A stretch of DNA of 64,000 bases. It comes from an uncultured Crocinitomix sp. (GTDB lineage: Bacteria > Bacteroidota > Bacteroidia > Flavobacteriales_D > Crocinitomicaceae). The notes beneath the pieces are model-generated. The model had not been told where the DNA came from. It saw only the letters and a list, made by a program, of their open reading frames with translations, and made no database searches. The first letter of the stretch is position 1. Every line of letters begins with the position of its first letter. The DNA is taken from the NCBI GenBank assembly GCA_937136425.1, contig CAKZON010000069.1, forward strand, positions 1 to 64,000, written 5' to 3'. The translations under genes and the position numbers were made by a program. This document shows, piece after piece, positions 11,084-40,683 of this stretch.

Positions 11084-11653
11084 ATGGAAAAAAACATAGC
11101 CATATTTGCATCAGGTGGTGGAAGTAATGCAGAAGTAATTATTGAACATTTCAAAAATTCTGACGCAGCAAATATTACTTTAATTGTAACAAATAAAGAA
11201 AATGCATTTGTTATTGAGCGTGCAAAAAACCACAACATTCCCTATTTTATTCATACTAAAGAAGATGTTGACAATGGAAACATTCTTGCTAAATTAAATG
11301 AGTTTGAAATTGACTTTATTGTTTTAGCAGGTTATTTAAAACGTATTCATCCTGAATTGATTACCGAATATCCAAACAAAATTGTCAATATTCACCCTGC
11401 CTTACTCCCTAAATTTGGAGGAAAGGGAATGTATGGAATGAATGTTCACAGGGCAGTGGTTGAAGCGCAAGAAGAAACAACAGGTATTACCATTCATTAT
11501 GTTAATGAAAATTATGATGAAGGAAATATTATTGAACAACACGCTTGCCTTATTGAACCAGAAGCGTCACCAGAATCTGTCCAAAAACAAGTATTAGAGT
11601 TAGAACATAAATATTTTGCACAAAGTATTGAAATGCTAGTGCGCAAATTATAA
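11084..11653 (+). CDS. purN: phosphoribosylglycinamide formyltransferase, 189 aa
   Basis: PurN transfers the formyl group of 10-formyl-THF to GAR in purine synthesis. It shows the N-terminal phosphate-binding ASGGGSN loop and catalytic residues Asn102 and His104 (VNIHPALLPKF) and Asp145 (NYDEGNII). I chose the ATG at 11084 because the family begins at MEKNIAIFASG; the upstream in-frame extension to 11036 lies on the predicted promoter and transcript leader. It is divergent from the nitroreductase/acpP/fabF/rnc strand, a common flavobacterial arrangement. Confidence 0.95.
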   Translation: MEKNIAIFASGGGSNAEVIIEHFKNSDAANITLIVTNKENAFVIERAKNHNIPYFIHTKEDVDNGNILAKLNEFEIDFIVLAGYLKRIHPELITEYPNKIVNIHPALLPKFGGKGMYGMNVHRAVVEAQEETTGITIHYVNENYDEGNIIEQHACLIEPEASPESVQKQVLELEHKYFAQSIEMLVRKL

Positions 11654-21788: not shown

Positions 21789-23555
21789 ATGAAAGCCCAA
21801 TTTACATTCCTAGTTCTTTTTTTTGCACTAACCAACTTTGCTCAAACCAAAAAGGTCGCAATTAATGTAGCCGTTTTAGGCACCAAGCATCCCACTGTAC
21901 GTTATTACCATCCTATAGACGGAGTTTATAAAATTTATTCGAAAATAGTTTCGTTTAAAAAATCAGATTTGAAAGGTTTAAGTCAATTTAAACTCATTCA
22001 ACCTGCTCTTTTTTTACATGATTCTACCAATATTATTCATGCCAATAGTTTAAGACATTATGTAGATCCTAAAGAGTTGGTTTATGTCAATTGGAAAATG
22101 AGTAGTGACAACTCTAATAATTTGAAATTAGATTCATTTACTATTGAAGCACAAAACATTCGAAATGAAAAATATGAATCAATCGTACAAGACTACTTCA
22201 ACCCTTTTTTCATTTCAAAGTATGAAGTTACCAATCAAGAATATCGTGAGTTTACAGAATGGGTAAGAGATTCCATTTTTCGCGAAGCTATTTATGCAAG
22301 TGATTCATTAACCAATGAGCAGGCATTTAAAATGCTAAAAATAGAGGAAGAAGATTATTTTAATGAAGCAAAAATGGAGTGGGAATTGGTCAAAGATGGA
22401 AGCCGTTCTATGATGCGTGAGCTGTATTCATTAAATTATGAATTTGACTATCGAAAAGAATTTCGAGACGATTTAATTATTCCCATTCTTTCCCAATTCT
22501 ATTTGCGCCCAAATGAACGTTTTTATAAGAGACCTAGTTTAGATCAAAGCAAGTTGAACTACCAATATTATTCCATGGACTTCAAAGCCATTGCCAATAC
22601 TGAATATAAAGAACCTACCAAAAAGAAACAAAATTCTGTCATTAGAAGTCATAGAGATTTGACTCCGTTTATTATCAAACACAAGCTTAATATCTATCCA
22701 GATACTACTTGCTGGCAAGATTTGGATCAAACACAATTCTCTGACGCAACAGGCAATATTTATTTTTGGCACCCGGCATTTAATCACATGCCTGTTGTAG
22801 GAGTCTCTCATTCTCAAGCTGAGGCTTATTGTGACTGGAAGCAAAAACAATTGCAAAAATCGAACCCTAACATTAGTCATAAATTCACTGTTAGTTTACC
22901 AAATTTAATAGAATATGAATGGGCAATTACCAGTGGATATAATCAAAACATTGCAGCGCAAATTGAAGACAATCAAATCACTTCTGACCTAATATTAGGT
23001 GACAATTCAGAAACTGAGCGCCCAACTAATTTCAGCTATGCAAAATCAATTTTACAAAAAGTAAACCTTCCTTATAATTCACAAAACATAAATGCACACC
23101 GCAAATTTTTGAAAATGATCAAAAAGAGATATTCTAAAGATTATCCAGAAATTTTTGGCTCAAAACATGACGTAATTATGAGAGCACAAGGGAACTATTT
23201 AGCCAGTCAGGTTGAGTTTTTATCCAACAATGCTTCTGAATGGATGAACGAAGATTACCAAACCCATTATCAAGCGTTGATCGAAGCCTACATTAATTAT
23301 AATTGCTTTGCTGATCCTTCTTATTGCGAAAACCAACGCAATATAGATCAAAACTTGAACCGATCAAATGATACAGATGGACAGCTAATTATGGGCGCCA
23401 ATTGGTATGATGAGCGATATGGTCAATTTGCTGGTGTGAACAAAGCAGGGCTTTATGCAAAAGCTTTTAAAACCAATTCAAAGTCATACGCCACGGTTGG
23501 TTTTAGATTAGTGCTCAGAATGAACCCGTCGAAACGTAATTATTACAGGCAATAA
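21789..23555 (+). CDS. exported GldJ/GldK-like FGE-domain protein, 588 aa
   Basis: A signal peptide (ending TNFAQ) is followed by an FGE/SUMF1-type domain interrupted by long insertions, as in the gliding/T9SS proteins GldJ and GldK: FFISKYEVTNQEYREFTEWV, HPAFNHMPVVGVSHSQAEAY with YCDWK, SLPNLIEYEWAI, VEFLSNNASEWMNED and a final ATVGFRLVLRM. The N-terminal ~130 residues are not recognised. There is no lipobox Cys, and the gldL-M-N genes are not adjacent, so this is a paralogue and not the core GldK. It is probably an envelope-associated structural protein. Confidence 0.75.
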   Translation: MKAQFTFLVLFFALTNFAQTKKVAINVAVLGTKHPTVRYYHPIDGVYKIYSKIVSFKKSDLKGLSQFKLIQPALFLHDSTNIIHANSLRHYVDPKELVYVNWKMSSDNSNNLKLDSFTIEAQNIRNEKYESIVQDYFNPFFISKYEVTNQEYREFTEWVRDSIFREAIYASDSLTNEQAFKMLKIEEEDYFNEAKMEWELVKDGSRSMMRELYSLNYEFDYRKEFRDDLIIPILSQFYLRPNERFYKRPSLDQSKLNYQYYSMDFKAIANTEYKEPTKKKQNSVIRSHRDLTPFIIKHKLNIYPDTTCWQDLDQTQFSDATGNIYFWHPAFNHMPVVGVSHSQAEAYCDWKQKQLQKSNPNISHKFTVSLPNLIEYEWAITSGYNQNIAAQIEDNQITSDLILGDNSETERPTNFSYAKSILQKVNLPYNSQNINAHRKFLKMIKKRYSKDYPEIFGSKHDVIMRAQGNYLASQVEFLSNNASEWMNEDYQTHYQALIEAYINYNCFADPSYCENQRNIDQNLNRSNDTDGQLIMGANWYDERYGQFAGVNKAGLYAKAFKTNSKSYATVGFRLVLRMNPSKRNYYRQ

Positions 23556-23673: not shown

Positions 23674-26292
23674 ATGAAGAATTTAACTTACATAGCAGCA
23701 AGCGCTTTGGCGATCGCAACTGCAACCTATCTTCTTGTTTCTCCCAATGAAGAAACAAGCTTAAATCAAAATACAACAATGTCAGCTCCTCCATTAGAAA
23801 TGGAAGACAAGGGTAAAAGCCTAGAACCGCACGACCAATGGTTGACTATACGGTCTTATCCCGACGGAAACTTTGACCAAGCACAATACTTGGAAAGAAT
23901 GGAGGAAGTTAAAATGCATGCTTATTCCGTTGCAGATTCACGTGACGTAGATTTAAGTCTAGATTGGCTGCAAGAAGGCCCTGGAAATATTGGTGGCCGA
24001 ATTGATGTATTAACACTAAGCCCTACTGATAACGATATTATTTACGCTGGTGCTACCAATGGTGGAGTGTTTAAAACTACTGATGGAGGTGATAACTGGG
24101 ATCCGATTTTTGATGATCAACCTTATTTATCAATCGGTGCTATTACAATTGACACAGAAGATGAAGACATAGTTTATGTAGGTACGGGTGATAGAAACTT
24201 TACTGGAAGTTCATTTTTAGGGAATGGAATTTATAAATCTGAAGATGGCGGAGATAGTTGGGACAATATTGGCCTAGAAGAAACTGGAGTTGTATCAAAA
24301 ATTATTATTGATCCAACAGATTCTGATCGCATTTTCGCTAGCACTTTGGGTAATCCGCATGTTAAAAATGGTCAAAGAGGTGTTTACCGTTCTGACGACG
24401 GAGGTGAAACATGGTCAAACAAACTATTTATTGCAGATTCAGCAGGAATTTCGGACATGGTAATGGATCCAAGTAACCCTGATATTTTATATGCATCAGG
24501 TTATAACAGAATGCGAAATTATTTTTCTTCAACGGTTACAGGTCCTCAATGCCGCATTTACAAAACTATTAATGGTGGTGAAACATGGTCGCAACTTTCT
24601 GGCGGATTGCCAATTGAAGACGATTGTAGAATTGGTTTAGCCATTTCTAATGACGACCCTAATACACTTTTTGCTTTATATGTTGACGGTGAAACCTTAG
24701 ATGTTGATGACATTTATAAAACAACAGACGGCGGAGCATCATGGGACGGTTTAAATGTTCACGGCGGAGCCGAAGATATTCCAGACGGTGCAATGGGCGG
24801 ATTTGGTTGGTATTTTGGTGAAGTATACTTAAACCCTTATAATAACGATCAATTAATTGTACCTGGTGTTGAAATGTTTCAATCATTAGACGGTGGTTTA
24901 GATTGGTATCAAAACGTACCTGAATGGTGGACATATGAAGTGCATGCAGACAAACATGCAGTAGCATTTTTAGATGAAGATTCTTATATCATTGCCACTG
25001 ACGGTGGTTTATACAAAACAGATAATAACGGAGAGAGTTGGGAGGATATTGAGAACCTACCAATCACTCAGCTTTATCATATTGATGTGCACCCGCATGA
25101 GGATGGTTTATATGGTGGTGGAGCACAAGACAATGGAACCATGTCAGGTAACGCAACCGTTTTTAACGATTGGGAACGATTAAACGGAGGAGATGGTTTC
25201 CGTGTTACCTTTTTAGAGGAAGATGCAGGAGCAGCCTATTATGAAACTCAAAATGGAGGATTGCGATATGCTGATCCAGGAGGTGCAACAACTAATATCT
25301 CACCTGATGATCCAGATCCAGATAGAACCAATTGGGATATGCCTTATTACATCAATGAGACAAGTTCAGAATTATTTGTGGGTACATCACGCATTCAAAT
25401 GATGCCAGATGCACCATTCAGTTGGTACACCTATGTCAGCGAAGATTTGACCAGAATTGGAATGGGCGAATCATTTGGTGCAGCGCGCTATCACACCATT
25501 ACAGAAATAGATGAATTTCCTGGAGTCCCTGACAATCTTTATGTTGGAACAAGTGATGGTTTAGTATGGATTGGTGATCGAACAGATGGAGGTGAATTTG
25601 CATGGGATTGGATTAACATTACAGATGATTTACCCAACCATTATATCACTGGATTAAGATGCTCTCCGAATATTTATAACACCTCTTATGTTTGCATGTC
25701 TGGCTATAAGTCTGATGATGATGGATCTTATTTGTATCGAAGAGAGGACGGTGCCTCAGGAGATTGGGTTGACATTTCTGGAAACTTACCAGACATTACC
25801 GTAAATGATGTGTTAATCGTTCCTGGACGAGAAGAAGATGACTACCTATTCGCAGCATTGGATGGCGGTGTATATTTCACTGCAAATGCTGGGGAACATT
25901 GGGAATATGTTGGCACAGGACTTCCGTTTGCAACTGTGAGTGAATTGCACTTAGATGAACCAAATCAAAAACTAATTGCAGGTACTTATTCTCGCTCAAT
26001 TTGGTCTTATGATGTAAGCTGGATGTATGAAGACGAGCCAATTGATGATACAGGAATAGAAGATGCAACAAAAAACCAAATCATAACCTATCCAAATCCG
26101 GCAACAGAATATGTTTATTTCGAAACTGTTGAAGCCGATTTAATAGAGATTTATAATCAACAAGGTCAGTTAGTTCAAACCCAAAAAGTGCATCATTTGA
26201 ACGGATTATCCAAAGTTAACCTGCCAGAACTAAAAACAGGTATTTATTTTTTCAGGGTAGGTCAGTCTTCTGGGTCTATAATTATAAAATAG
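23674..26292 (+). CDS. T9SS type A cargo with BNR/sortilin-type beta-propeller, 872 aa
   Basis: The N-terminal hydrophobic segment acts as signal. From residue ~100 (EGPGNIGGRIDVLTLSPTD) follow repeated Asp-box motifs typical of BNR/sortilin (VPS10-like) propellers: TTDGGDNW, SEDGGDSW, SDDGGETW, TINGGETW, TTDGGASW, TDNNGESW. The C-terminal ~75 residues are a T9SS sorting domain (ITYPNPATEYVYFETVEAD to GSIIIK). Such proteins are secreted glycan- or protein-binding factors or glycosidase-like; no sialidase Arg triad was identified. It has a 118-base gap upstream and 184 bases downstream. Confidence 0.88.
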   Translation: MKNLTYIAASALAIATATYLLVSPNEETSLNQNTTMSAPPLEMEDKGKSLEPHDQWLTIRSYPDGNFDQAQYLERMEEVKMHAYSVADSRDVDLSLDWLQEGPGNIGGRIDVLTLSPTDNDIIYAGATNGGVFKTTDGGDNWDPIFDDQPYLSIGAITIDTEDEDIVYVGTGDRNFTGSSFLGNGIYKSEDGGDSWDNIGLEETGVVSKIIIDPTDSDRIFASTLGNPHVKNGQRGVYRSDDGGETWSNKLFIADSAGISDMVMDPSNPDILYASGYNRMRNYFSSTVTGPQCRIYKTINGGETWSQLSGGLPIEDDCRIGLAISNDDPNTLFALYVDGETLDVDDIYKTTDGGASWDGLNVHGGAEDIPDGAMGGFGWYFGEVYLNPYNNDQLIVPGVEMFQSLDGGLDWYQNVPEWWTYEVHADKHAVAFLDEDSYIIATDGGLYKTDNNGESWEDIENLPITQLYHIDVHPHEDGLYGGGAQDNGTMSGNATVFNDWERLNGGDGFRVTFLEEDAGAAYYETQNGGLRYADPGGATTNISPDDPDPDRTNWDMPYYINETSSELFVGTSRIQMMPDAPFSWYTYVSEDLTRIGMGESFGAARYHTITEIDEFPGVPDNLYVGTSDGLVWIGDRTDGGEFAWDWINITDDLPNHYITGLRCSPNIYNTSYVCMSGYKSDDDGSYLYRREDGASGDWVDISGNLPDITVNDVLIVPGREEDDYLFAALDGGVYFTANAGEHWEYVGTGLPFATVSELHLDEPNQKLIAGTYSRSIWSYDVSWMYEDEPIDDTGIEDATKNQIITYPNPATEYVYFETVEADLIEIYNQQGQLVQTQKVHHLNGLSKVNLPELKTGIYFFRVGQSSGSIIIK

Positions 26293-26476: not shown

Positions 26477-27046
26477 ATGGATCCATTTATCGGACAAATC
26501 CAGCCGTTTGGTTTTAATTTTGCACCACGTGGTTGGGCAAAATGTGACGGACAACTAATTGCTATTTCAAGCAATTCTGCATTATTTTCGCTTCTAGGAA
26601 CAACCTTCGGCGGAGATGGTAGAACAACTTTCGGTTTACCAGACTTAAGAGGAAGAAGCATTGTTCATATTGGTCACGGACCAGGACTCTCAACTATCAC
26701 TTGGGGTGAAAGAGGCGGAACGGAGCAATTGTACGTTACTCAGGCAAACATGCCTGCTCACGCACATTCACTAACCAATGGCGTTGCTGATGTAACTGTC
26801 TACACCAAAGAAGATACTGGTGACAGCGTTAATGAAACAGATAATGGGGCAAACTGCCTAAGTACAGGCGGGGCTACACCTCAAATTTATCAGGAAGATC
26901 CTACTGGAGCAGACAAATTAGGAGCTGTACAAATTTCTGGTACAACCAACTTGACTGGAGGAAATATTCCATTACAATCACGTAATCCTTTTTTAGGTAT
27001 TAACGTTTGTATTGCAGAATTTGGTATTTACCCATCTCGTTCTTAG
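26477..27046 (+). CDS. phage tail collar domain protein (Mdp family), copy 1, 189 aa
   Basis: It is a single-domain protein of the tail-collar/microcystin-dependent protein (MdpB) family: FAPRGWAKCDGQLIAIS near the N-terminus, then ALFSLLGTTFGGDGRTTFGL and PDLRGRSIVHIGHGPGLS, then NMPAHAHSLTNG. The C-terminus ends NVCIAEFGIYPSRS. There is no signal peptide. About 90% identical by hand count (18 differences in 189) to the next gene. No phage genes are nearby. The biochemical role of freestanding Mdp proteins is unknown. Confidence 0.9.
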   Translation: MDPFIGQIQPFGFNFAPRGWAKCDGQLIAISSNSALFSLLGTTFGGDGRTTFGLPDLRGRSIVHIGHGPGLSTITWGERGGTEQLYVTQANMPAHAHSLTNGVADVTVYTKEDTGDSVNETDNGANCLSTGGATPQIYQEDPTGADKLGAVQISGTTNLTGGNIPLQSRNPFLGINVCIAEFGIYPSRS

Positions 27047-27104: not shown

Positions 27105-27674
27105 ATGGATCCATTCTTAGGACAAATTCAGCCTTACGGCTTTAATTTTGCACCACGCGGTTGGGCAAAATGTGACGGACAATTACTCCCTATTTCTGCT
27201 TACAGTGCTTTATTTTCACTGCTTGGAACTACTTTCGGAGGAGACGGTAGAACTACTTTCGGTTTACCAGATCTAAGAGGTAGAAGTATTGTACATATTG
27301 GTCATGGACCAGGACTTTCCACCATCACTTGGGGTGAAAGAGGTGGGGTAGAACAATTATATGTCACGCAGGCAAATATGCCCTCTCACTCTCACTCACT
27401 TACGAACGGTGTTGCTAATGTAACGGTATATACCAAAGAAGATACTGGTGATAGTGTTAATGAAACAGATAACGGAGCAAATAGTTTAAGTACTGGTGGA
27501 GCTACACCTCAAATTTATCAAGAAGATCCTACAACAGGAGATAAATTAGGTGCGGTACAAATTTCCGGTACAACAAATCTTGCAGGTGCAAATATTCCAT
27601 TACAATCACGTAATCCTTTTTTAGGTATTAATGTTTGTATAGCCCTTCAAGGTATTTTCCCATCAAGAAGTTAA
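27105..27674 (+). CDS. phage tail collar domain protein (Mdp family), copy 2, 189 aa
   Basis: Tandem duplicate of the preceding gene, 58 bases downstream, with the same length and domain. The core GGDGRTTFGLPDLRGRS and the C-terminal IPLQSRNPFLGINVCIA are identical; differences cluster at residues 28-33, around 90-105 and in the last ten residues (ALQGIFPSRS). Both lack signal peptides. A 14-base-stem hairpin follows the stop. Confidence 0.9.
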   Translation: MDPFLGQIQPYGFNFAPRGWAKCDGQLLPISAYSALFSLLGTTFGGDGRTTFGLPDLRGRSIVHIGHGPGLSTITWGERGGVEQLYVTQANMPSHSHSLTNGVANVTVYTKEDTGDSVNETDNGANSLSTGGATPQIYQEDPTTGDKLGAVQISGTTNLAGANIPLQSRNPFLGINVCIALQGIFPSRS

Positions 27675-27685
27675 TAATCAAAATC

Positions 27686-27719
27686 AAAGAGAAGTTGTCT
27701 GAATTGACAACTTCTCTTT
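27686..27719 (+). terminator. strong terminator hairpin after the collar pair
   Basis: Perfect 14-base stem AAAGAGAAGTTGTC (27686-27699) and GACAACTTCTCTTT (27706-27719) with a six-base TGAATT loop, starting 11 bases after the stop of copy 2 and ending 18 bases before the ATG at 27738. It could end the collar transcript or act as an attenuator that lowers expression of the downstream genes. Confidence 0.75.
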
Positions 27720-27737: not shown

Positions 27738-28841
27738 ATGACGCACAACATTGGAGTACTCATTCCTCAATCAAATGCTTACCCATTAATCGGAAAAGAA
27801 TTTATACATGGGCTTAAGCTTGGTTTAGGTGATATCGACTTTAAATTATCAATTGAGAGCATTGCTTTCGGGTCAGACTCAAAGCAAATAATCAATGCCA
27901 CTCAAAAACTATTTTTTCAAGAAGACACCTGTTTAACAACAGGTTTATTAGGTCATTATGGCCTTTCTGAGTTAACTGAATTTGTTTCTAAAAATGATGA
28001 AATTTTGTTGATGGCAACAATGGGAGCTACTCGCCCTTTTGATTTACCAAGCGGAACATTTCAAAATACTTTTGGGCTATACAACGCCTTACAAGATCTC
28101 GTTCATCATTTTGATAAAAACAATGTCTCTAAAATAGAAACTTCCACTTGCTACTACGAATCTGGTTATGGTTTTATTGAAGCGTTAGCAACAAGCTTAG
28201 AAAACTCGGACAATGTTGAATTTTCGGGTCATTTTATAACTCCGCATGAACCCCGTGAAAACGAAGCGGAACTTATGATTCAACATGTTTCTGAAGATAA
28301 TCCTGAAGCCATTGTTGCATTTCATAATGGTGTATTTGCTAAAGAACATGCTACTTTTTTAGCCGAAAACAATATGCATAAAAAATTCCCTATTTATGCT
28401 CTTCCTTTCACTTGTGAAGATGCATTAATAAATGATTATGAAACCGTCTTTCAAGAAATAACAACAGTCTCTAGCTGGTACCCACAACTTGAAAATGAAT
28501 CCAACAAAAAATTTGTTACTGATTATACAGCATCCAAAAGTAAAACCCCATCCTTTTTTGCCCTTTTAGGATATGAAAATGGGCTAATAATTGCAAATGC
28601 GCTAAAACAAAATCATACCGCATTAAAAACAGCAATTTCTGACACAAACATCAACGGTCCTAGAGGGCCAATTGCATTTGGTAAAGAAACCAACAGCACA
28701 GCTTTTGATCAACATTTATGGAAAATAAACGGCAATGATAAAACTGTCATTTCCAAACTTGAAACAAATCCTAAAAAAACCAATCCTCCACATGAAGATA
28801 GTGAGGCAAAGGGTTGGTTTAACGCATACTTATGTCATTAA
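27738..28841 (+). CDS. periplasmic-binding-fold (Leu/Ile/Val-type) protein without signal peptide, 367 aa
   Basis: It starts directly with HNIGVLIPQSNAYPLIGKEF, the first strand of a type I periplasmic-binding (ABC amino-acid/amide type) domain. Later come LTTGLLGHYGLSELTEFVSK, LPSGTFQNTFGLYNALQDLV, an EALATSLENSDNVEFSGHFI segment and LLGYENGLIIANALKQN with NINGPRGPIAFG, as in LivJ-like proteins. There is no signal peptide or lipobox; the first strand begins at residue 5. No ABC permease or ATPase is nearby. It follows the collar pair and precedes the two adhesin genes by 10 bases, so it is likely a sensor or a partner and not a transport component. Confidence 0.8.
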   Translation: MTHNIGVLIPQSNAYPLIGKEFIHGLKLGLGDIDFKLSIESIAFGSDSKQIINATQKLFFQEDTCLTTGLLGHYGLSELTEFVSKNDEILLMATMGATRPFDLPSGTFQNTFGLYNALQDLVHHFDKNNVSKIETSTCYYESGYGFIEALATSLENSDNVEFSGHFITPHEPRENEAELMIQHVSEDNPEAIVAFHNGVFAKEHATFLAENNMHKKFPIYALPFTCEDALINDYETVFQEITTVSSWYPQLENESNKKFVTDYTASKSKTPSFFALLGYENGLIIANALKQNHTALKTAISDTNINGPRGPIAFGKETNSTAFDQHLWKINGNDKTVISKLETNPKKTNPPHEDSEAKGWFNAYLCH

Positions 28842-28851
28842 ATCTAAAGAA

Positions 28852-31266
28852 ATGAAAAAGCAATTATTACTTACTATGTTAATAGGGCTCATTAGTCCCT
28901 TTTGTTTTGCTCAACTTGCCATTGGCGACATTGCATTAATTGGTTACAATACCGATAGTGGACCTGGTCCGTCTACCGACCACAGTTTCTCCTTCATTAC
29001 CCTAAATGATATTCCCGGAAGTGAGGTCATTTACTTTACAGAAGAAGGGTGGAATGATGATGCCGACACATGGGCTGGCACCTCGGAGGGACACATTCAA
29101 TATACCGCCCCCGCATTAGGGCTGAGCTGCGGAACAATTATTTACATCACTGAATCTGGAAGTGATGTTTTTTCAGTTATGGGTGGTGGCACTGCTACGC
29201 TTGAAAGTGGTTCTGGTTGGAACCTCTCTGGCGGTGATCAAATCTTGGCTTACCAAGCAGATTCACCCGAACCTGGAACAATTCCTACATTTATTGCAGG
29301 ACTAAACGGTGATGACGGAAATGGATCCCCTGTTTCTCTTGATCCAATTACTCAGTGGAATGATCCTTCAACAGGACCTTTAGGAACAGCAAAATCTGGT
29401 CAACCAGACGGACTTACAAATGGTGAGAATTGCGTTTCTCTCTTTATAGCTGTATTTACAGAACAAGACAATGCAAAATATACTGGTACACTAACTGGTA
29501 CTTCAACTTTTTTACGTGGAGAAATTAATGACCGAACGAATTGGAGTTTTGATAATGGAACTGCCTTCAATATTACGCCTGGTGCATTTTCACCGTCCGT
29601 AACATGCGTGGCTCCTTGCTCGGATCCAACCGTTCCAACAATAACATATTCACCCATTACCTTTTGCGAAGGGGAATCCACAACATTAAATATTTCAGGA
29701 ACCCTAAATGATGCTACCGAATGGCATATTTATACTGGTTCTTGTGGAGGAACAGAAATAGGAACAACAGCTGGAACCACTTTTGAAGTTACTCCTGAAG
29801 ATGCAATTACTACTTATTTTATTCGAGGCGAAGGTGGTTGCGTAACTCCTGGAAGCTGCGGAAGTGTTGAAGTATCTATTACACCAGAAGATGACGCATC
29901 ATTCAGTTATGATGAGGCTATTTATTGTCCAAATGCGAGTAGTAGCACTCCATCAATAACCTTATCCGGTGGTACATTTACATCTAGTCCTGCAGGGTTA
30001 GATCTAAACGCATCTACTGGCGAAATTAATCCATCAGAAAGTGACCTTGGAGTGTATACAATAACCTACACTACTGCTGGAGATTGCCCGAGTAGTGAAG
30101 AAGTAAGCATTACTATTGAAGATAATGACGCTCCTGTTCCAGATTTAGCAGACTTGCCAAATATAACAGCAGAATGCGAAATTACTGAACTTATCAATCC
30201 TGGAGTAACAGACAATTGCACAGATCCAGTAATCATAACAAATGACGCAACATTGCCTATTACAGAGCAAGGAACTTATACCATCACTTGGACATATGAC
30301 GACGGAAATGGAAATACAACAACGCAAACGCAAACGATAATTGTAGATGATGTAACTGGACCAACACCTGATGATCCAGTTTTAGCTGACATTACAGATG
30401 AATGCGAAGTTAGCCTGTTAACATCTCCAAGTGCAACAGATAATTGCGGCGGAGAAGTAACCGTTTCAAGTGATGCAGAATTACCAATCACCGAACAAGG
30501 AACAACAATAATTACATGGACTTATGTTGATATTGAAGGAAATTCTACCACACAAACTCAAAACATTGTAATAGATGATGTAACTGCACCTATCCCAGAT
30601 GAAGTTCCTTTGGAAGATTTTTCTTCTGCATGTGAAATTAATGAGCTACCAACACCTACAGCCACTGATAATTGTGATGGAGATGTTGAAATTACTAGTG
30701 ATGCCATATTCCCAATTACTGAAGCCACAACTATTGTTTGGACTTATGATGATGGTAATGGAAACACAGTAACACAATCACAAAATATTGTTTTTGCTCC
30801 AATTGATGTAAGCATTACAACTGATGTAATTACCATTTCTGCAAACAATACAGATGCAACTGCCTATCAGTGGATAAATTGTGATGATTTATCGGAGATT
30901 GATGGTGCAACAGGTAACACATTTACTCCAGATGCAAATGGAACTTATGCTGTTATTATTATTGAGGGCGAATGTCAAGACACTTCTGAGTGTGTTACAA
31001 TTTCACAGGTTAGTATTTCTGAAAACTTAGCGAGTCTGGTTCAAATTTATCCTAACCCACTCACGAATTCCGTTTTAACAATACAATCACCGCTTGAAAT
31101 TAGTAGTGTTCAATTAATTGATATTAATGGTCGTGTTGTGGAAATTGATGCAACCTTGATTAATGGAAAACTAGACCTAACAGATATTAGCAACGGAAGC
31201 TACGTGCTTATTATTGAAACAACACCAGGACAAATTATTCAAAAGCGTTTAACGGTATTGAAATAA
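28852..31266 (+). CDS. T9SS type A secreted protein with N-terminal GDIA-type domain and HYR-like repeats, 804 aa
   Basis: A signal peptide (residues 1-20, SPFCFAQ) is followed by a ~220-residue domain: LAIGDIALIGYNTDSGPGPS, EVIYFTEEGW and ITESGSDVFSVMGGG, related to lamin-tail-like domains of bacterial secreted proteins. Then come an Ig-like domain (ITFCEGESTTLNISG), one unit of the repeat used by the next gene, and three HYR-like units (each with a CE...ATDNC pattern). The last ~75 residues are a T9SS sorting domain (VQIYPNPLTNSVLTIQSP to QKRLTVLK). I chose ATG 28852 because it directly precedes the signal peptide, 10 bases after the upstream stop; longer starts overlap that gene. Confidence 0.88.
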   Translation: MKKQLLLTMLIGLISPFCFAQLAIGDIALIGYNTDSGPGPSTDHSFSFITLNDIPGSEVIYFTEEGWNDDADTWAGTSEGHIQYTAPALGLSCGTIIYITESGSDVFSVMGGGTATLESGSGWNLSGGDQILAYQADSPEPGTIPTFIAGLNGDDGNGSPVSLDPITQWNDPSTGPLGTAKSGQPDGLTNGENCVSLFIAVFTEQDNAKYTGTLTGTSTFLRGEINDRTNWSFDNGTAFNITPGAFSPSVTCVAPCSDPTVPTITYSPITFCEGESTTLNISGTLNDATEWHIYTGSCGGTEIGTTAGTTFEVTPEDAITTYFIRGEGGCVTPGSCGSVEVSITPEDDASFSYDEAIYCPNASSSTPSITLSGGTFTSSPAGLDLNASTGEINPSESDLGVYTITYTTAGDCPSSEEVSITIEDNDAPVPDLADLPNITAECEITELINPGVTDNCTDPVIITNDATLPITEQGTYTITWTYDDGNGNTTTQTQTIIVDDVTGPTPDDPVLADITDECEVSLLTSPSATDNCGGEVTVSSDAELPITEQGTTIITWTYVDIEGNSTTQTQNIVIDDVTAPIPDEVPLEDFSSACEINELPTPTATDNCDGDVEITSDAIFPITEATTIVWTYDDGNGNTVTQSQNIVFAPIDVSITTDVITISANNTDATAYQWINCDDLSEIDGATGNTFTPDANGTYAVIIIEGECQDTSECVTISQVSISENLASLVQIYPNPLTNSVLTIQSPLEISSVQLIDINGRVVEIDATLINGKLDLTDISNGSYVLIIETTPGQIIQKRLTVLK

Positions 31267-31311: not shown

Positions 31312-34300
31312 ATGAAATTAACGCGTTTTATCTTGATTTTAAGCATGGTGTGTTGCACCTCAGCTTTTACTCAATTAGCAATTGGAGACATTGCCTTTAT
31401 TGGATATAATACGGATTCAGGTCCAGGAGCTTCAACAGATCACAGTTTTTCATTTATTACTCTTACAGATATTCCTGGAAGTGAAGTCATCTTCTTTACA
31501 GAAGAAGGTTGGAATGATGACGCAAGTAGCTGGGCTGGAACATCCGAAGGGCATATCGAGTGGACTGCTCCTGGAGGCGGTGTTAGTTGTGGAACAGTAA
31601 TTTATATCACCGAATCTGGATCAGATGTTTTTACAGTTACTGGCGGCGGAACTGCAACGCTAGAAAGTGGTTCTGGTTGGAACTTATCTGGTGGGGACCA
31701 AGTTTTAGCTTACCAAGCTGCAACAGCTGAACCTGCTACTACACCCACATTCATTAGTGGAATTAATGGAGATGATGGAAATGGATCTCCTGTTTCGCTT
31801 GATCCTGCCACAAATTGGAATGACCCTTCAACAGGCCCTTTAGGAACAGCAAAATCAGGGCTTCCATTTGGTCTTACAAATGGAGATGATTGTGTATCTC
31901 TATTTATTGCTGTTTTTACAGAACAAGACAACGCAAAATACACGGGTACATTAACCGGAACTTCAACTTTTTTACGTGGAGAGATCAATGACCGAACGAA
32001 TTGGAGTACCGATAATGGTACTGCTTTTGATATAACGCCAGGTTCTTATAGCCCATCAGTAACATGCGTTGCTCCCTGTACAGATCCAGATGTTCCAACT
32101 GCAACATCTGCTCCAGGAACAATATGTGATGGAAATTCTGCTCTATTGACAATTTCTGGAGATAAAAATGATGCCACCGCGTGGCACATTTATACCGGAT
32201 CTTGTGGAGGCACATTATTAGGAACCACAGCTGGTTCAACCTTTATTGTAACACCGACTCCACCAAGTACAACTTATTTTATTCGTGGTGAAGGTGGTTG
32301 TGTTACTTCCGGTTCATGCGGAACAATAACAGTTACAACAACACCTCGCGAAGATGCATCATTCAACTATTCTGCTGGCTCATATTGCGTTAATGATTCT
32401 GACCCTACACCGACTATTACTGGTGTTGGAGGTGGAACTTTCTCTGCTGGCGGCGGTTTATCTATTAATACTTCCACTGGGCAAATTGATGTTTCAGCAT
32501 CTACCCCAGGAACTTATACCGTAACTTATACTACAGGGGGCCTATGTGCAGGTGATGAGGATGTAAGTGTAACAATAAATGCTTTAGATAATGCCTCGTT
32601 TAATTATAGCGCGGCAGCATATTGTGTAGATGATTCTGATCCTACCCCAACTATTACTGGTTTAGGTGGTGGAACATTTTCTGCTGGTGTTGGGTTATCA
32701 ATCAATACTTCTACTGGTGCTATTGATGTTTCAGCATCTACACCTGGAACATATACCGTGACTTATACTACCACTGGAACTTGTCCTAACTCTTCAAGTG
32801 TATCTGTTACAATTAACGCTTTAGATGATCCTTCATTTAACTACTCGGCTGGTGCTTATTGTGCCAATGATTCTGACCCTACACCAACTATTACTGGTCT
32901 TGGTGGAGGAACATTTTCTGCAGGAGGAGGATTGTCAATTAATACGTCTACTGGTGCGATTGATGTTTCGGCATCTACGCCAGGAACATATACAGTTACC
33001 TATACGACAACAGGATCTTGTCCAAACTCGTCAAGTATTTCTGTTACTATTAATGCTTTAGATGATGCGTCATTTAATTACTCGGCTGCAGCCTATTGTG
33101 TAGATGATTCTGACCCTACACCAACTATTACTGGTTTAGGTGGTGGAACATTTTCTGCTGGTATTGGACTTTCTATTAATACGTCTACTGGAGCTATTGA
33201 TGTTTCAGTATCTACCCCAGGAACTTATACCGTGACTTACACAACAACTGGAACTTGTCCTAATTCTTCAAGCGTTTCAGTAACTATTAATGCTTTAGAT
33301 GATCCTTCATTTAACTATTCGGCTGGTGCTTATTGCCCTAATGATTCTGATCCTACACCAACTATTACTGGTTTAGGTGGTGGAACATTTTCTGCTGGAG
33401 GAGGATTGTCAATCAACACATCAACTGGGCTAATTGATGTTTCTGCATCTACACCTGGCACATACACCATTACTTACACAACAGCGGGATCTTGTCCCAA
33501 TTCTTCAAGTGTTTCTGTTACTATAAATGCTTTAGATGATGCTTCATTCAACTATAGCGCTGCAGCATATTGCGTGAACGATTCTGATCCTACACCAACT
33601 ATTACTGGTTTAGGCGGAGGAACATTCTCTGCTGGAGTTGGACTTTCTATTAACACTTCTACAGGTGCTATTGATGTTTCGGCATCTACACCTGGTACAT
33701 ATACCGTGACTTATACAACTACTGGAACTTGCCCTAATTCATCAAGTGTTTCAGTAACGATTAACGCCTTAGATGACGCCTCTTTTTCTTATGATGCCGG
33801 AAGCTACTGCGTTAGCGAACCTGACCCTACCCCAACCATTACTGGTTTAGATGGTGGTACTTTTTCCGCTGGAGTTGGACTGTCAATTAATACTTCTACT
33901 GGTATTATTGATGTTTCAGCATCTACGCCAGGAACCTATACTGTGACTTATACTACTGCAGGAACTTGTCCTAATTCTTCAAGTGTCTCTGTAACGATTA
34001 CAACATTAGATGATGCTTCGTTTAACTACAGTGCAGCGGCATATTGTGTAGACGATTCTGACCCTACACCAACTATTACAGGTTTAAGTGGTGGAACATT
34101 CTCTGCCGGGGTTGGACTTTCTATTAATACTACTACAGGCGCTATTGATGTTTCAGCATCTACACCAGGAACCTATACTGTGACTTACACAACTGTGGGT
34201 TCTTGCGCAAACTCTTCAAGTGTTTCAGTAACTATTAATGCTTTAGATAATGCTTCATTTAATTACTCGGCTGGTGCTTATTGCGCTGATGATTCTGATC

Positions 34301-37300
34301 CTACACCAACTATTACTGGTTTAGGTGGAGGTACTTTCTCGGCCGGTGTTGGGTTATCAATTAATACTTCTACTGGTGCTATTGATGTTTCCACATCTAC
34401 TCCTGGTACATACACCGTGACTTATACAACTACTGGAACTTGTCCTAATTCTTCAAGCGTTTCTGTTATTATAAATGCTTTAGATGATGCTTCATTCAAC
34501 TATAGTGCTGCAGCTTATTGTGCAGATGATTCTGATCCTACCCCAACTATTACTGGTTTAGGCGGTGGAACATTCTCTGCAGGCGTTGGGCTTTCAATTA
34601 ATACTTCTACAGGTGCTATTGATGTTTCTGCATCTACTCCTGGTACATACACTGTAACTTATACAACAACGGGAACTTGTCCTAACTCTTCAAGTGTTAC
34701 TGTCACTATTAATGCGTTAGATGATGCTTCATTTAACTATTCGGCTGGTGCTTATTGCGCTGATGATTCTGACCCTACACCAACAATCACTGGTTTAGGC
34801 GGTGGAACATTCTCTGCTGGAGTTGGATTATCAATAAACACTTCAACTGGGCAAATTGACGTTTCAGCATCAACACCAGGAACCTACACTGTAACTTATA
34901 CAACTACAGGAACTTGTCCTAACTCTTCAAGTGTTACCGTAACTATTAATGCTTTAGATGATGCAAGTTTCAATTATGACTCTCCTAGTTACTGCATTAG
35001 CGAACCTGATCCCACACCAACCATTACTGGTCTAAGCGGGGGTACATTTTCTGCAGGAGTTGGATTAATCATTAATGCATCCAATGGAGAAGTTGATGTT
35101 TCTGCATCAACACCTGGAACTTACACGGTGACTTATACAACCACTGGAACTTGCCCTAACTCTTCAAGTGTATCTCTAACAATTAATACATTAGATGATG
35201 CCTCGTTTAACTTTGACGCCGCAATTTATTGTCCAAACGGAGTAGATCCTACGCCAACAATAACAGGAGTACCAGGGGGAGCATTCTCCGCAGGAGTTGG
35301 ATTAGTAATCAATGCATCTACAGGAGAAATTGATTTATCTGCATCTATTGAGGGAACTTATACGGTTACTTATACAACTATTGGACTATGCTCTAATTCG
35401 AGCAGTGAAACTGTAACAATAATTGATGATACACCCCCAGTACCTGACGTTGCAGATTTACCAGATGTAACTGCAGAATGCGAAGTTGCTTCATTGACTA
35501 ACCCAACAGCAACCGACAATTGTGGAGGAGTTGTAACTGTATCCAATGATGCTTCTTTACCAATTACAGATCAAGGAACAACAGTTGTTACATGGACCTA
35601 TGATGATGGGAACGGAAATACGACAACACAGACGCAAGATGTTGTAATAGACGATATAACAGACCCTGTCCCAGATGATGCTGTTTTAGATGATATAACT
35701 GCAGAATGTGAAGTTAACGTATTAACTGACCCAACTGCTACAGATAATTGCGGAGGAATAGTTACCGTATCCAATGATGCTTCTTTACCGATTACAGACC
35801 AAGGAACAACAATTGTTACGTGGACTTATGACGACGGAAATGGAAATACAACAACACAAACACAAAATGTAGTAATAGATGACATTACTGGACCAACACC
35901 TGATGATGCTGTTTTAGATGACGTCACTGCAGAATGCGAAGTTACTTCATTAACCGATCCTACTGCTACTGATAATTGTGGTGGAATCGTTACGGTTTCA
36001 AATGATGCTTCTTTACCAATTACAGATCAGGGAACAACGGTTGTTACATGGACTTATGACGACGGAAATGGAAATACAACGATCCAAACACAGGACGTTG
36101 TTATTGATGACATTACTGCTCCAACTATTTTAGATTGCCCAGGGGACATTACAGAAGATGCTAACACTGTAATTTGCGAAGCCATTGTTACATGGACTGA
36201 ACCTACTATGACAGATAATTGTACAGACGCAACAATGACCTCAACACATTCACCTGGAGATATTTTCCCACTTGGAACAACTACTGTAACCTATACTGCG
36301 ACCGATATCGGATTAAATGAAACAACCTGTTCATTTGATGTTATTGTTGCATCTGATTTAACATTAACAACTGTTATTACAGATGAAGAAATGGGCGGTG
36401 ACGGAGCAATTGATCTTACTGTAACAGGAGGTGTTCCAGGATATTTATATGATTGGGATGTAGATGGAACCGGGGACTTTGATGACACTGAAGATTTGAC
36501 AGATTTAACTGCTGGAACTTATTTAGTTGAGGTAGTGGATGACATTGGTTGTACAGCAACTGCTTCTATAGATGTTGTTCTTTCATGTATGCCGTTAGAA
36601 GTAGTTGTATCAGATACAATTCTTTGCGAAAACGACCTATTACTTTTAGATGCCACCTCAATGAGTGGAGCAGATATTACATGGGATGGTGGTGCAATTG
36701 ACGGTGAAGAATTTATGCCAGGTGTTGTTGGAACAATTGTTTACACCGCAACAAGTGCGGATGAAGAGGACTGTTCATTATCTGTTGAAATTGAAGTATT
36801 AGCAGCACCAACTGTTGTTGCATCCGCAGGTGACGGTTCATTTTGTGATGGCGAACCAGTAGTACTTTCTGCAGGTGGAGATGCCGACACCTTTACATGG
36901 GATCCTGCTGATTTAGATCCACCAATTGGTATAACAACATATACTTTAACAGGTATATTTGATGAAACAGGATGTATGAATACCTCAACTATTGATGTTA
37001 CTGTTCACGCATTACCTACAGTAATTGCAAATGCAGAAAATGAAAATATTTGTGAAGGAAATTCAGCCATATTATTTGGAGCAGGAGCAGAAACATATGT
37101 ATGGATTCCGGAAGGAACATTCGAAGATGGAGAGCCGTTTGTGCCAGGACCAATTGGCACATATACGTACACTGTAATTGGAACGGATGTAAACGGTTGT
37201 ACAGCTAATGACGAAATTACAATAAACGTAGTTGAAAGTATTACCATCACCTATGACGTTATCAACGAAATAGGTGGTGCTGATGGTGAAATCAACATTA

Positions 37301-37713
37301 CTGTTACGGGTGGATTAGCTCCATATTTATTTGATTGGGATAATGATATAACAGGTGATTTTGATGATGATGAAGACTTAACAGATCTTACTTATGGTTT
37401 CTATGAGGTTGTTGTTAGAGGTGAAGCAGAATGCGAAGCGAGCGAAATTATCTATGTAGACACACAAGTTGGTATTGAAGAAGAAGGTATAGAGTTATTG
37501 CAACTTTATCCAAATCCTACGCAAAATAATCTAACATTACAACTAGCTGGATCTTTCACCTACACAGTTTATAGCTTAGAAAGTAAATTAGTCTTAGCTG
37601 GCCAAGGAATAGATCAAGAATCAATCTTCGTTGGAAGTATAGAAGATGGAACTTATTTAATTGAAATTCAAAATGAAAATGGTGTGCAAAGAACGCAGTT
37701 TGTAAAAAACTAA
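31312..37713 (+). CDS. giant T9SS type A adhesin with 13 tandem 79-aa repeats, 2133 aa
   Basis: A signal peptide (CCTSAFT) leads into an N-terminal ~220-residue domain nearly the same as the upstream paralogue (LAIGDIAFIGYNTDSGPGAS, TSTFLRGEINDRTNWS). After an Ig-like domain come 13 repeats of 79 aa starting D(D/N)(A/P)SFNYSA.AYC and containing DPTPTITGLGGGTFSAGVGL and DVSASTPGTYTVTYTT. Three HYR-like 76-aa units (TAECEV, ATDNCGG) follow, then a canonical HYR unit (TILDCPGDITED), SprB-like segments (GGDGAIDLTVTGGVPGY with YDWD) and a T9SS sorting domain (LQLYPNPTQNNLTLQLAG to FVKN). It is surface-exposed, probably a filamentous adhesin. It lies 45 bases after its paralogue and ends before a strong terminator. 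Confidence 0.92.
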   Translation: MKLTRFILILSMVCCTSAFTQLAIGDIAFIGYNTDSGPGASTDHSFSFITLTDIPGSEVIFFTEEGWNDDASSWAGTSEGHIEWTAPGGGVSCGTVIYITESGSDVFTVTGGGTATLESGSGWNLSGGDQVLAYQAATAEPATTPTFISGINGDDGNGSPVSLDPATNWNDPSTGPLGTAKSGLPFGLTNGDDCVSLFIAVFTEQDNAKYTGTLTGTSTFLRGEINDRTNWSTDNGTAFDITPGSYSPSVTCVAPCTDPDVPTATSAPGTICDGNSALLTISGDKNDATAWHIYTGSCGGTLLGTTAGSTFIVTPTPPSTTYFIRGEGGCVTSGSCGTITVTTTPREDASFNYSAGSYCVNDSDPTPTITGVGGGTFSAGGGLSINTSTGQIDVSASTPGTYTVTYTTGGLCAGDEDVSVTINALDNASFNYSAAAYCVDDSDPTPTITGLGGGTFSAGVGLSINTSTGAIDVSASTPGTYTVTYTTTGTCPNSSSVSVTINALDDPSFNYSAGAYCANDSDPTPTITGLGGGTFSAGGGLSINTSTGAIDVSASTPGTYTVTYTTTGSCPNSSSISVTINALDDASFNYSAAAYCVDDSDPTPTITGLGGGTFSAGIGLSINTSTGAIDVSVSTPGTYTVTYTTTGTCPNSSSVSVTINALDDPSFNYSAGAYCPNDSDPTPTITGLGGGTFSAGGGLSINTSTGLIDVSASTPGTYTITYTTAGSCPNSSSVSVTINALDDASFNYSAAAYCVNDSDPTPTITGLGGGTFSAGVGLSINTSTGAIDVSASTPGTYTVTYTTTGTCPNSSSVSVTINALDDASFSYDAGSYCVSEPDPTPTITGLDGGTFSAGVGLSINTSTGIIDVSASTPGTYTVTYTTAGTCPNSSSVSVTITTLDDASFNYSAAAYCVDDSDPTPTITGLSGGTFSAGVGLSINTTTGAIDVSASTPGTYTVTYTTVGSCANSSSVSVTINALDNASFNYSAGAYCADDSDPTPTITGLGGGTFSAGVGLSINTSTGAIDVSTSTPGTYTVTYTTTGTCPNSSSVSVIINALDDASFNYSAAAYCADDSDPTPTITGLGGGTFSAGVGLSINTSTGAIDVSASTPGTYTVTYTTTGTCPNSSSVTVTINALDDASFNYSAGAYCADDSDPTPTITGLGGGTFSAGVGLSINTSTGQIDVSASTPGTYTVTYTTTGTCPNSSSVTVTINALDDASFNYDSPSYCISEPDPTPTITGLSGGTFSAGVGLIINASNGEVDVSASTPGTYTVTYTTTGTCPNSSSVSLTINTLDDASFNFDAAIYCPNGVDPTPTITGVPGGAFSAGVGLVINASTGEIDLSASIEGTYTVTYTTIGLCSNSSSETVTIIDDTPPVPDVADLPDVTAECEVASLTNPTATDNCGGVVTVSNDASLPITDQGTTVVTWTYDDGNGNTTTQTQDVVIDDITDPVPDDAVLDDITAECEVNVLTDPTATDNCGGIVTVSNDASLPITDQGTTIVTWTYDDGNGNTTTQTQNVVIDDITGPTPDDAVLDDVTAECEVTSLTDPTATDNCGGIVTVSNDASLPITDQGTTVVTWTYDDGNGNTTIQTQDVVIDDITAPTILDCPGDITEDANTVICEAIVTWTEPTMTDNCTDATMTSTHSPGDIFPLGTTTVTYTATDIGLNETTCSFDVIVASDLTLTTVITDEEMGGDGAIDLTVTGGVPGYLYDWDVDGTGDFDDTEDLTDLTAGTYLVEVVDDIGCTATASIDVVLSCMPLEVVVSDTILCENDLLLLDATSMSGADITWDGGAIDGEEFMPGVVGTIVYTATSADEEDCSLSVEIEVLAAPTVVASAGDGSFCDGEPVVLSAGGDADTFTWDPADLDPPIGITTYTLTGIFDETGCMNTSTIDVTVHALPTVIANAENENICEGNSAILFGAGAETYVWIPEGTFEDGEPFVPGPIGTYTYTVIGTDVNGCTANDEITINVVESITITYDVINEIGGADGEINITVTGGLAPYLFDWDNDITGDFDDDEDLTDLTYGFYEVVVRGEAECEASEIIYVDTQVGIEEEGIELLQLYPNPTQNNLTLQLAGSFTYTVYSLESKLVLAGQGIDQESIFVGSIEDGTYLIEIQNENGVQRTQFVKN
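32350..35430 (+). repeat. 13 tandem coding repeats of 237 bases
   Basis: In-frame array with a constant 237-base period (starts at 32350, 32587, 32824, 33061, 33298 and so on). Units alternate AAAYCV and AGAYC versions, and two units (7 and 12) share the divergent SEPDPTPT variant. Synonymous differences between units are frequent, so this is not a very recent expansion, but the length is likely to vary between strains. Confidence 0.9.
35440..36123 (+). repeat. three tandem coding repeats of 228 bases (HYR-like)
   Basis: Three units of 76 codons with a constant 228-base period, each with an ACTGCAGAATG(C/T)GAAGTT start (35470, 35698, 35926) and a shared ATGATGCTTCTTTACC segment. Less similar three-unit versions occur in the upstream paralogue. 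Confidence 0.85.
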
Positions 37714-39144: not shown

Positions 39145-40683
39145 ATGAGTACCACACAAGACCGATTCGGACATCCAAAAGGACTTTACTATTTGTTTTT
39201 TGCAGAGCTATGGGAGCGCTTTTCCTTTTATGGAATGAAAGCCCTTCTTGTTTTATACATGACCAAACAATTATTGTTTACAGATGAAATGTCATTTGGA
39301 GTTTATGCGGCTTATATGTCTTTGGTTTATGTTACACCACTTATTGGCGGAATAGTTGCTGAACAAATGATTGGTTATCGCAAAGCGATTAATTTGGGTG
39401 GAATTTTAATGGCTTTTGGTCATTTTTTCTTGACTTTTGAGCATCCCTTTTTCTTTTATTTCTCTCTTGGATTGATCATTGTTGGAAATGGATTTTTTAA
39501 ACCCAATATATCATCTTTTGTTGGTGCACTTTATCCAGCTGGAGACAAAAGAAGAGATTCCGGATTTACAATTTTTTACTTAGGCGTTAATTTAGGCGCT
39601 ACCATTGCACCTTTACTTTGCGCTTGGGTTGCCGAACTTTATGGATGGCATCTTGGATTCATACTAGCCGGAATTGGAATGTTGTTGGGACTAATTGTTT
39701 TTCAACGCGGCATAAATAAAAATATTTTTGATGATTTAGGTAAAATTCCAAATCCTGAAAAATATAAGATTAAACGCTGGGGATTAGGACAACAAACCCA
39801 AGTCATTATTGGAGCAATAATTTCTATTCCAATCTTTGCATTAATTGTTAAATTCTATCAATTTGAGCATTATCTTTTATGGATTGTTTCGGCTTTTTTG
39901 GTGGTCTATTTAGGTTCTATATTATACAAAGTTAGCACAGCAGAAAAAAAGCGATTAATGGTGGCTGTTTACTTTACGCTTTTAGCCACACTATTCATGA
40001 TCATTTTTGAGCAAGCCGGAAGTTCATTAACACTATTTGCAGATAGGAATGTCAATTTAATTGGCATAAACGCCGCACAAACTAATAGTATTAATGCCGC
40101 CTTTATTGTTTTATTAGCTGTGCCGTTTGCCTTGTTATGGCCATTCCTAACTAAAAGAAATAGCAACCCAAGTTCACCGCTTAAAATGGGTGCAGGGCTT
40201 TTATTATTAGGTGTTGGATTTATTATTTTTGGAATGTCATCACGCTCAATGGATGATGGCGGAAATGTACCTATGTACTACCTTATTTTAGGAACATTCA
40301 TTTACACCATTGGTGAGCTCTTTCTCTCACCAATCGGCCTTTCAAAAATGACCGAATTATCTCCAAAAAAGTACGTTGCTTTTATTATGGGTGTTTGGTT
40401 TTTATCCTCTTTTTATGGACATTATTTTGCAGGGAAATTAGCGCAATTAACTTCAGTTTCCGCTGGAGAAGATAGCGTTTTAAGCTCTGGCATATTTGCA
40501 AAAGTTTCAAACTTAATAACAGGTTTAGATAGTGTTACGGCATTGCAAATGGGTGATTCCTTTTTTCAATTACACTCTTATGTATCTGTTTATGCCATAT
40601 TTGGAAGTATAGCCATTGTTTTGGGAGTATTAGCTATGCTTATTTCACCTTTTATTAAGCAAATGATGGGTGGGATAAAGTAA
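39145..40683 (+). CDS. POT family proton-dependent di/tripeptide transporter, 512 aa
   Basis: This is an inner-membrane symporter that imports small peptides. The N-terminal E21xxE24R25 motif (FFAELWERFSFYGMKALLV) couples protons, and the PTR2 signature region FYLGVNLGATIAPLLCAW is present. It has 12 or more hydrophobic segments and the usual length; SPIGLSKMTELSPKKY matches helix 10 of bacterial POTs. The upstream gap of 175 bases repeats CAACCTTTAAG twice (near 39010 and 39090), with unknown meaning. Confidence 0.93.
   Translation: MSTTQDRFGHPKGLYYLFFAELWERFSFYGMKALLVLYMTKQLLFTDEMSFGVYAAYMSLVYVTPLIGGIVAEQMIGYRKAINLGGILMAFGHFFLTFEHPFFFYFSLGLIIVGNGFFKPNISSFVGALYPAGDKRRDSGFTIFYLGVNLGATIAPLLCAWVAELYGWHLGFILAGIGMLLGLIVFQRGINKNIFDDLGKIPNPEKYKIKRWGLGQQTQVIIGAIISIPIFALIVKFYQFEHYLLWIVSAFLVVYLGSILYKVSTAEKKRLMVAVYFTLLATLFMIIFEQAGSSLTLFADRNVNLIGINAAQTNSINAAFIVLLAVPFALLWPFLTKRNSNPSSPLKMGAGLLLLGVGFIIFGMSSRSMDDGGNVPMYYLILGTFIYTIGELFLSPIGLSKMTELSPKKYVAFIMGVWFLSSFYGHYFAGKLAQLTSVSAGEDSVLSSGIFAKVSNLITGLDSVTALQMGDSFFQLHSYVSVYAIFGSIAIVLGVLAMLISPFIKQMMGGIK

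Follow-up and report, generated by a model that had tools for sequence, protein, structure and literature searches.

Binding-fold proteins that work outside a transporter have been described in bacteria. In the accessible parts of the respective sources, AmiC is cited as a cytosolic case of the fold (PMC9602780) and NasS is described as lacking the signal sequence that its periplasmic relative has (PMC3795266). The window considered here, which is the whole stretch of 64,000 nucleotides analysed from an uncultured Crocinitomix sp. (contig CAKZON010000069.1), encodes a protein of this kind, P0001. Like AmiC and NasS as described in those parts, it has a soluble binding fold outside a transporter and is leaderless (PMC9602780; PMC3795266). 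The contexts are different, however. AmiC and NasS act in catabolism and nitrate assimilation, whereas P0001 is encoded in a collar operon, and AmiC, although it is among the PDB profile matches of P0001, matches weakly (4.5e-4). The best reading by analogy is that P0001 would work most like the cytosolic AmiC and NasS, without being classed with them.

The closest relatives in sequence are exported ABC binding proteins. In a profile search of the PDB, the solved chains nearest to P0001 were 4evq (6.2e-35) and 4ey3 (1.1e-30), both similar over the full length. We take both to be aromatic-acid binders; the database names them only as ABC or Tat-signal proteins. An aromatic ligand for P0001 is by analogy a suggestion only. 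CouP, which binds coumarate and has a signal sequence according to the available part of its source (PMC3610893), may serve as an example of an aromatic binder, by which no kinship to P0001 is implied. A search of plasmid records with one relative of P0001 (L109) returned ten alphaproteobacterial records, of which nine carry the annotation ABC transporter substrate-binding protein and the tenth is labelled braC_6. The three records examined all lie in benzoate clusters with permeases and ATPases. The one plasmid relative that was translated, from Sulfitobacter, is adjoined by two permeases and two ATPases, stands among benzoate genes and has a leader that is clear by eye, and it lacks the W-x-N-x-Y-x-C tail described below. 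In contrast, P0001 is leaderless, comes without a LIV-type permease and carries this tail in addition.

The other half of the locus consists of collar genes of the PF07484 type, a kind to which COG4675 presumably belongs as well. In the available parts of the sources, RhiB is described as a collar-domain protein of rhiABC in Rhizobium that is encoded by the cell and not by a phage (PMC13133039), a collar-domain protein is reported in the exoproteome of Roseobacter (PMC4949626) and 'microcystin-dependent protein' COG4675 is listed in soil metaproteomes (PMC5579227). The rhiABC operon shares a cell-encoded collar-domain protein with the Bacteroidota collar operon, whereas a binding-fold partner and a T9SS protein, both of which are present here, go unmentioned in the available part of that text (PMC13133039). 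Among the literature matches listed, consisting of titles and the starts of abstracts with few subscription journals, there was no description of an operon that combines collars with a binding protein. New here are the association with collar genes, the hairpin between collar and gene, the W-x-N-x-Y-x-C tail and the formyltransferase behind the gene.

The binding-fold gene and its start

Table 1. Features of the collar operon in the window.
Feature	Position	Strand	Evidence
Collar protein 1, 189 aa, PF07484, no leader by eye	26477..27046	+	Pfam 9.8e-29; alignment
Collar protein 2, 189 aa, PF07484, no leader by eye, ends ..GIFPSRS	27105..27674	+	Pfam 2.3e-29; alignment
Terminator-like hairpin, 14-bp stem, 6-nt loop, T-rich 3' side	27686..27719	+	fold z -4.8, -20.4 kcal/mol
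P0001, leaderless periplasmic-binding-fold protein, Peripla_BP_6, 367 aa	27738..28841	+	Pfam; PDB profile search; start comparison
Codons of the conserved tail G-W-F-N-A-Y-L-C-H of P0001	28812..28838	+	family conservation
Secreted protein, signal-peptide-like start MKKQLLLTMLIGLISPFCFAQ, Por_Secre_tail (T9SS type A)	28852..31266	+	Pfam; NCBIfam; start inferred
2133-aa protein, clusters with downstream proteins of other loci	31312..37713	+	blastp cluster c1

P0001 (Table 1) matches Peripla_BP_6 (PF13458) at 3.6e-19, above the curated Pfam cut-off, and is the only match to this domain in the host genome. When contigs were scanned with P0001 alone as the query, a single relative was found, which is 90% identical. 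Between these two genes dN/dS is 0.089 at a dS of 0.62, and the open reading frame is a real gene under purifying selection. An AlphaFold model with P0001 and one relative as input reached a pLDDT of 33 and gave no usable fold.

The sequence-only reading of this locus held that the first β-strand starts near residue 5, leaving no possibility of a leader from this ATG, and that no in-frame start lies upstream after the hairpin. Both points were borne out. The N-terminus, MTHNIGVLIP, places the first strand at about residue 5. Upstream of the ATG, the frame offers five open codons (S-F-L-L-F) before a stop is reached, and there is no ATG, GTG or TTG among the five.

Relatives were counted in four overlapping genome samples. 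The binding-protein gene is present in 20 of 200 genomes of the host family and in 20 of 399 genomes of the host order and, at a loose threshold, in 26 of 395 genomes of the class and 25 of 395 of the phylum, the last count including one weak match (G622). The set used for comparison was limited by a fixed score and comprises 58 loci in 57 genomes; it excludes L139 (6e-17) and L140 (4e-12). One of the 58, L138, is a second copy in genome G807, present as a fragment at the edge of a contig, and stands outside the 57 full-length proteins, whose median pairwise identity is 23%. In one genome (G132, contig C277, 3754-4801), the gene is split over two adjacent matches, and it is possibly broken there or affected by a sequencing error.

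Comparing the starts of homologues had been proposed as a check, and the outcome agrees with the absence of a leader. No start codon gives at least 15 residues before the first strand in 47 of the 57 full-length proteins, among which P0001 is counted; of the 47, 23 have a frame that closes within 15 codons and 24 an open frame without a start that far up. The ATG nearest to the first strand is found 1-10 codons away in 56 of the 57 and 19 codons away in L123. Ten members have a possible longer start, which by a lenient rule is signal-like in two of them (L128 and L129, both TTG). A conserved signal peptide in homologues, which would have spoken against the sequence-only reading, was not found within the family. 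Because the frames are too short or startless in P0001 and most members, a conserved leader can, as far as the frames tell, be excluded there.

The same holds for the transporter partners. As had been noted earlier, no permease or ATPase is nearby: a Pfam scan of nine neighbouring proteins found neither an ABC permease nor an ABC ATPase. The sole transporter among them is an oligopeptide:H+ symporter of the POT family about 10 kb downstream (39145-40683). POT-family symporters are not known to use binding proteins. The LIV-type permease domain, BPD_transp_2, has no match in the host genome, while 12 of 14 control genomes were positive, and it is missing from 55 of the 57 genomes carrying the binding-protein gene. 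The lack of this permease in the host and in these 55 genomes makes a transport role for P0001, as predicted from gene content, very unlikely. Compared with LIV/HAAT substrate-binding proteins, P0001 agrees in fold and sequence and has neither the leader nor the BPD_transp_2 permease. Without an export leader and a partner permease it is, judging from the sequence, not a functional ABC-transporter binding protein.

Other identities were considered and rejected. P0001 is not taken to be a phage gene, as no match was found in phage records or in PHROG, and as a search of viral_contigs with a single tail pattern matched 11 stretches, none of which encodes a relative. The type IX route requires a Sec leader and a C-terminal domain of its own; P0001 has no room for such a leader and no Pfam match to Por_Secre_tail, and was discarded as a T9SS cargo. 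PADLOC, applied to seven proteins, gave zero matches.

Collar genes, hairpin and tail

The sequence-only reading had also brought P0001 together with the collar proteins. This link is strongly supported as a genomic association. A collar gene is found at most three genes away on the same strand in 56 of the 58 loci, and directly upstream in 50; the two loci without a nearby collar are L026, which lies on a contig of 5.8 kb, and the contig-edge fragment L138. In the phylum sample, collars of this type occur in 92 of 395 genomes, among them all 25 with the binding-protein gene. Collars without the binding protein are thus present in 67 of the 92, and the binding protein without a collar in none. 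In 20 collar loci from 19 of these 67 genomes, no match to the binding-protein profile was found; for one of the 20, L204, the collar model gave no collar. Collar protein 2 of the window has a dN/dS of 0.034, and none of 12 aligned operon collars has a leader by eye. In three collar arrays that have no binding protein (L195, L198 and L202), proteins with a twin-arginine-like start are encoded ahead of the collars, and at L195 and L198 the arrays are followed by proteins of about 165 aa resembling acetyltransferases by eye. Elsewhere in the host genome, outside the window (G000, contig C106, 19212-19859), three collar domains are found in one open frame of 262 aa.

The hairpin between collar protein 2 and P0001 is separated from the ATG by 18 nt; the relative with 90% identity has the same stem with a different loop. 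By a strict rule, the gap that separates the collar from the binding-protein gene contains a terminator-like hairpin in 36 of 50 loci and lacks one in 14; the corresponding figures are 1 of 38 for gaps between collars, 1 of 53 for gaps following the gene and 0.3% for mononucleotide shuffles. The hairpin sequences vary between loci, and mainly the architecture is kept. Folding distances were measured, without shuffles, in 48 of the 50 gaps (the other two had no anchor match), and 46 of the 48 fold at -8 kcal/mol or better. In those 46, the last paired base is a median of 13.5 nt away from the start (range 1-35), which leaves little room for a promoter in between. The binding protein would consequently be made by read-through, in a smaller amount than the collars. 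Alternatively, transcription may start from a promoter inside the collar gene, and the hairpin may be an ordinary terminator.

At its other end, the family closes with W-x-N-x-Y-x-C, with the W present in all 58 members, the N in 54, the Y in 52 and the C in 54. This tail is conserved despite the low identity of the binding proteins, and it is placed after a poorly conserved linker, beyond the Pfam domain. A G replaces the C in four members (L122, L123, L136, L137), which are loci without a directly upstream collar. A six-frame scan of 935,573 bases around the loci found one other frame with such an ending, a short one, and a looser tail pattern also found one short frame when applied to the 20 collar loci whose genomes lack the gene. 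The ending of L139, a protein that is UrtA-like by eye, resembles the tail.

Enzymes and secreted proteins beside the operon

A formyltransferase-like gene was found by clustering near 35 of the 58 loci, directly behind the binding-protein gene in 34. Formyl_trans_N and Formyl_trans_C were both found in the five copies scanned, and the N-x-H and D-x-G motifs are present in 35 of 35. Beside the gene, the enzyme is absent in the genus of the window and in a neighbouring genus, g18; the three formyltransferase matches of the host genome lie away from it, one of them inside the window (11090-11623). Conversely, a formyltransferase is found directly behind collars without a binding protein at L191 and L200, and nearby on the opposite strand at L205. 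Other enzymes are less frequent. An Asp/Asn beta-hydroxylase is present in 12 of 58 loci by blastp, or 11 by profile, a sulfotransferase-like protein in 7 (a call for which the Pfam match was below the cut-off in the one copy scanned), a carbamoyltransferase in 3 and a 2OG-Fe(II) oxygenase in 4. The loci with the beta-hydroxylase beside the operon are L120, L121, L122, L124, L126-L130 and L135-L137, part of which add sulfotransferase-like, HEAGH-motif, carbamoyltransferase or 2OG-Fe(II) oxygenase genes. Patchily, these enzyme neighbours hint at protein modification.

A further gene of at least 250 aa lies behind the binding protein in 53 of 58 loci. By a lenient rule and without a control set, 50 of these 53 large proteins have a signal-peptide-like start; those of L026 and L138 are probably not the secreted protein of the operon. 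The T9SS C-terminal domain was verified with Pfam in two, the downstream protein of the window, for which the mechanical open reading frame begins at 28735, and a giant protein of L029. Upstream of the collars, the window encodes a 588-aa protein with an FGE-sulfatase domain (21789-23555) and partial similarity to GldK (140 bits, with a cut-off of 350), and a like protein is found in the same place in L022. An 872-aa protein of the sortilin/BNR type with a T9SS sorting domain (23674-26292) stands directly before the collars and is conserved in L022 and L023.

Possible roles of the binding protein

The reading preferred here, to which a probability of about 0.4 is given, is that P0001 derives from an exported solute-binding protein and is now a cytosolic ligand-binding partner of the Bacteroidota collar operon, docking by its tail and gating the collar fibre. 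Its sequence-level basis is the absence of a leader and of a LIV-type permease, the fixed neighbourhood, the hairpin and the conserved tail. The exported ancestor, probably a solute-binding protein for aromatic acids, would have lost both leader and transporter. Transcription from the collar genes would pass through the hairpin, and this read-through would yield collars in excess and smaller amounts of the binding protein, the formyltransferase and the secreted protein. In the cytosol, the binding protein would hold a small, perhaps aromatic or carboxylated, molecule. The W-x-N-x-Y-x-C tail would dock on a partner from the operon, either a collar protein or the formyltransferase, and this docking would gate the assembly or the modification of the collar fibre. 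That the protein is kept in the cytosol, as the sequence-only reading had it, stands as the simplest reading of a family in which 47 of 57 members leave no space for a leader and 55 of 57 genomes lack a LIV-type permease; it does not stand as the only one, however, since L140 and the exoproteome report keep export in play. The two roles offered in the sequence-only reading, a cytosolic sensor and export by an unusual route, are candidates at present.

The reading that survives best beside it, unlikely but to be taken seriously, is that the binding protein is released along with the collars, either through lysis or via an unknown leaderless route, and forms the ligand-binding head of an extracellular collar fibre, the tail being an export or docking tag. 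The operon collars are likewise leaderless by eye, a collar-domain protein has been reported in the Roseobacter exoproteome in the available part of that source (PMC4949626), and the large proteins behind the gene look secreted in 50 of 53 cases, by the lenient rule without a control set. A remote relative, L140 (7602-8753, minus strand), which aligns to the family with an hhalign probability of 87% (E 3.6e-6), is located directly behind three collars and has a possible start, MVRRDVLKYTLGLGSLAAI, that is Tat-like. This suggests a role outside the cytosol in the L140 lineage, but the family proper has nothing like this N-terminus. A leader is, moreover, impossible in 47 of 57 members, and the type IX route would not fit P0001, with its lack of room for a Sec leader and of a matching C-terminal domain. 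Exported proteins are expected to hold fewer cysteines than the one to eight core cysteines counted per protein, a count made without a control set. In a wider version, which has to be called rather improbable, leaderless collars and binding protein would belong to a phylum-wide multi-gene system, as yet undescribed, in which they are assembled, tailored by formylation and the like, and delivered to the surface beside type IX proteins, with the tail as a new C-terminal sorting or docking signal.

It is doubtful that P0001 is a regulator in the manner of AmiC or NasS, in which ligand binding by the protein would control whether transcription passes the hairpin in front of the protein's own gene. 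The protein is leaderless and of the same fold family as AmiC, with the weak profile match given above, and in most loci a hairpin lies just before the gene. However, ANTAR was found above the cut-off in 0 of the 57 genomes, with one match below it (0 of 14 controls were positive, so that the sensitivity of this search is unproven), and a hairpin that differs in sequence between loci, with mainly its architecture kept, argues against such control. Quite improbable, too, is a role as scaffold or modification substrate, in which the formyltransferase would modify the tail or the collar, joined in some loci by the beta-hydroxylase, the sulfotransferase-like protein, the carbamoyltransferase or the 2OG-Fe(II) oxygenase. 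The frequency of these genes, above all of the formyltransferase directly behind the gene, would fit this role, but they are missing in many loci, the one in the window included, and the formyltransferase is also found behind collars without a binding protein (L191, L200). Lastly, an ordinary ABC-transporter binding protein with a mis-called start is hardly credible: the Peripla_BP_6 homology and the signal-like longer TTG start in 2 of 57 members are outweighed by the lack of leader room in P0001 and in 47 of 57 members and of a LIV-type permease in 55 of 57 genomes, and for P0001 itself this is refuted by the lack of leader room in a host without BPD_transp_2.

With the cytosolic partner as the preferred reading, an uncharacterised operon of the Bacteroidota gains a testable shape, consisting of collars, a hairpin, a tailed binding protein without a transporter, often an enzyme, and secreted proteins. 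The exported relatives carry the annotation of ABC-transporter binding proteins, and the leaderless family is easily annotated in the same way, which would mislead predictions of nutrient uptake. The operon may also show how cells make use of phage-tail-like proteins of their own.
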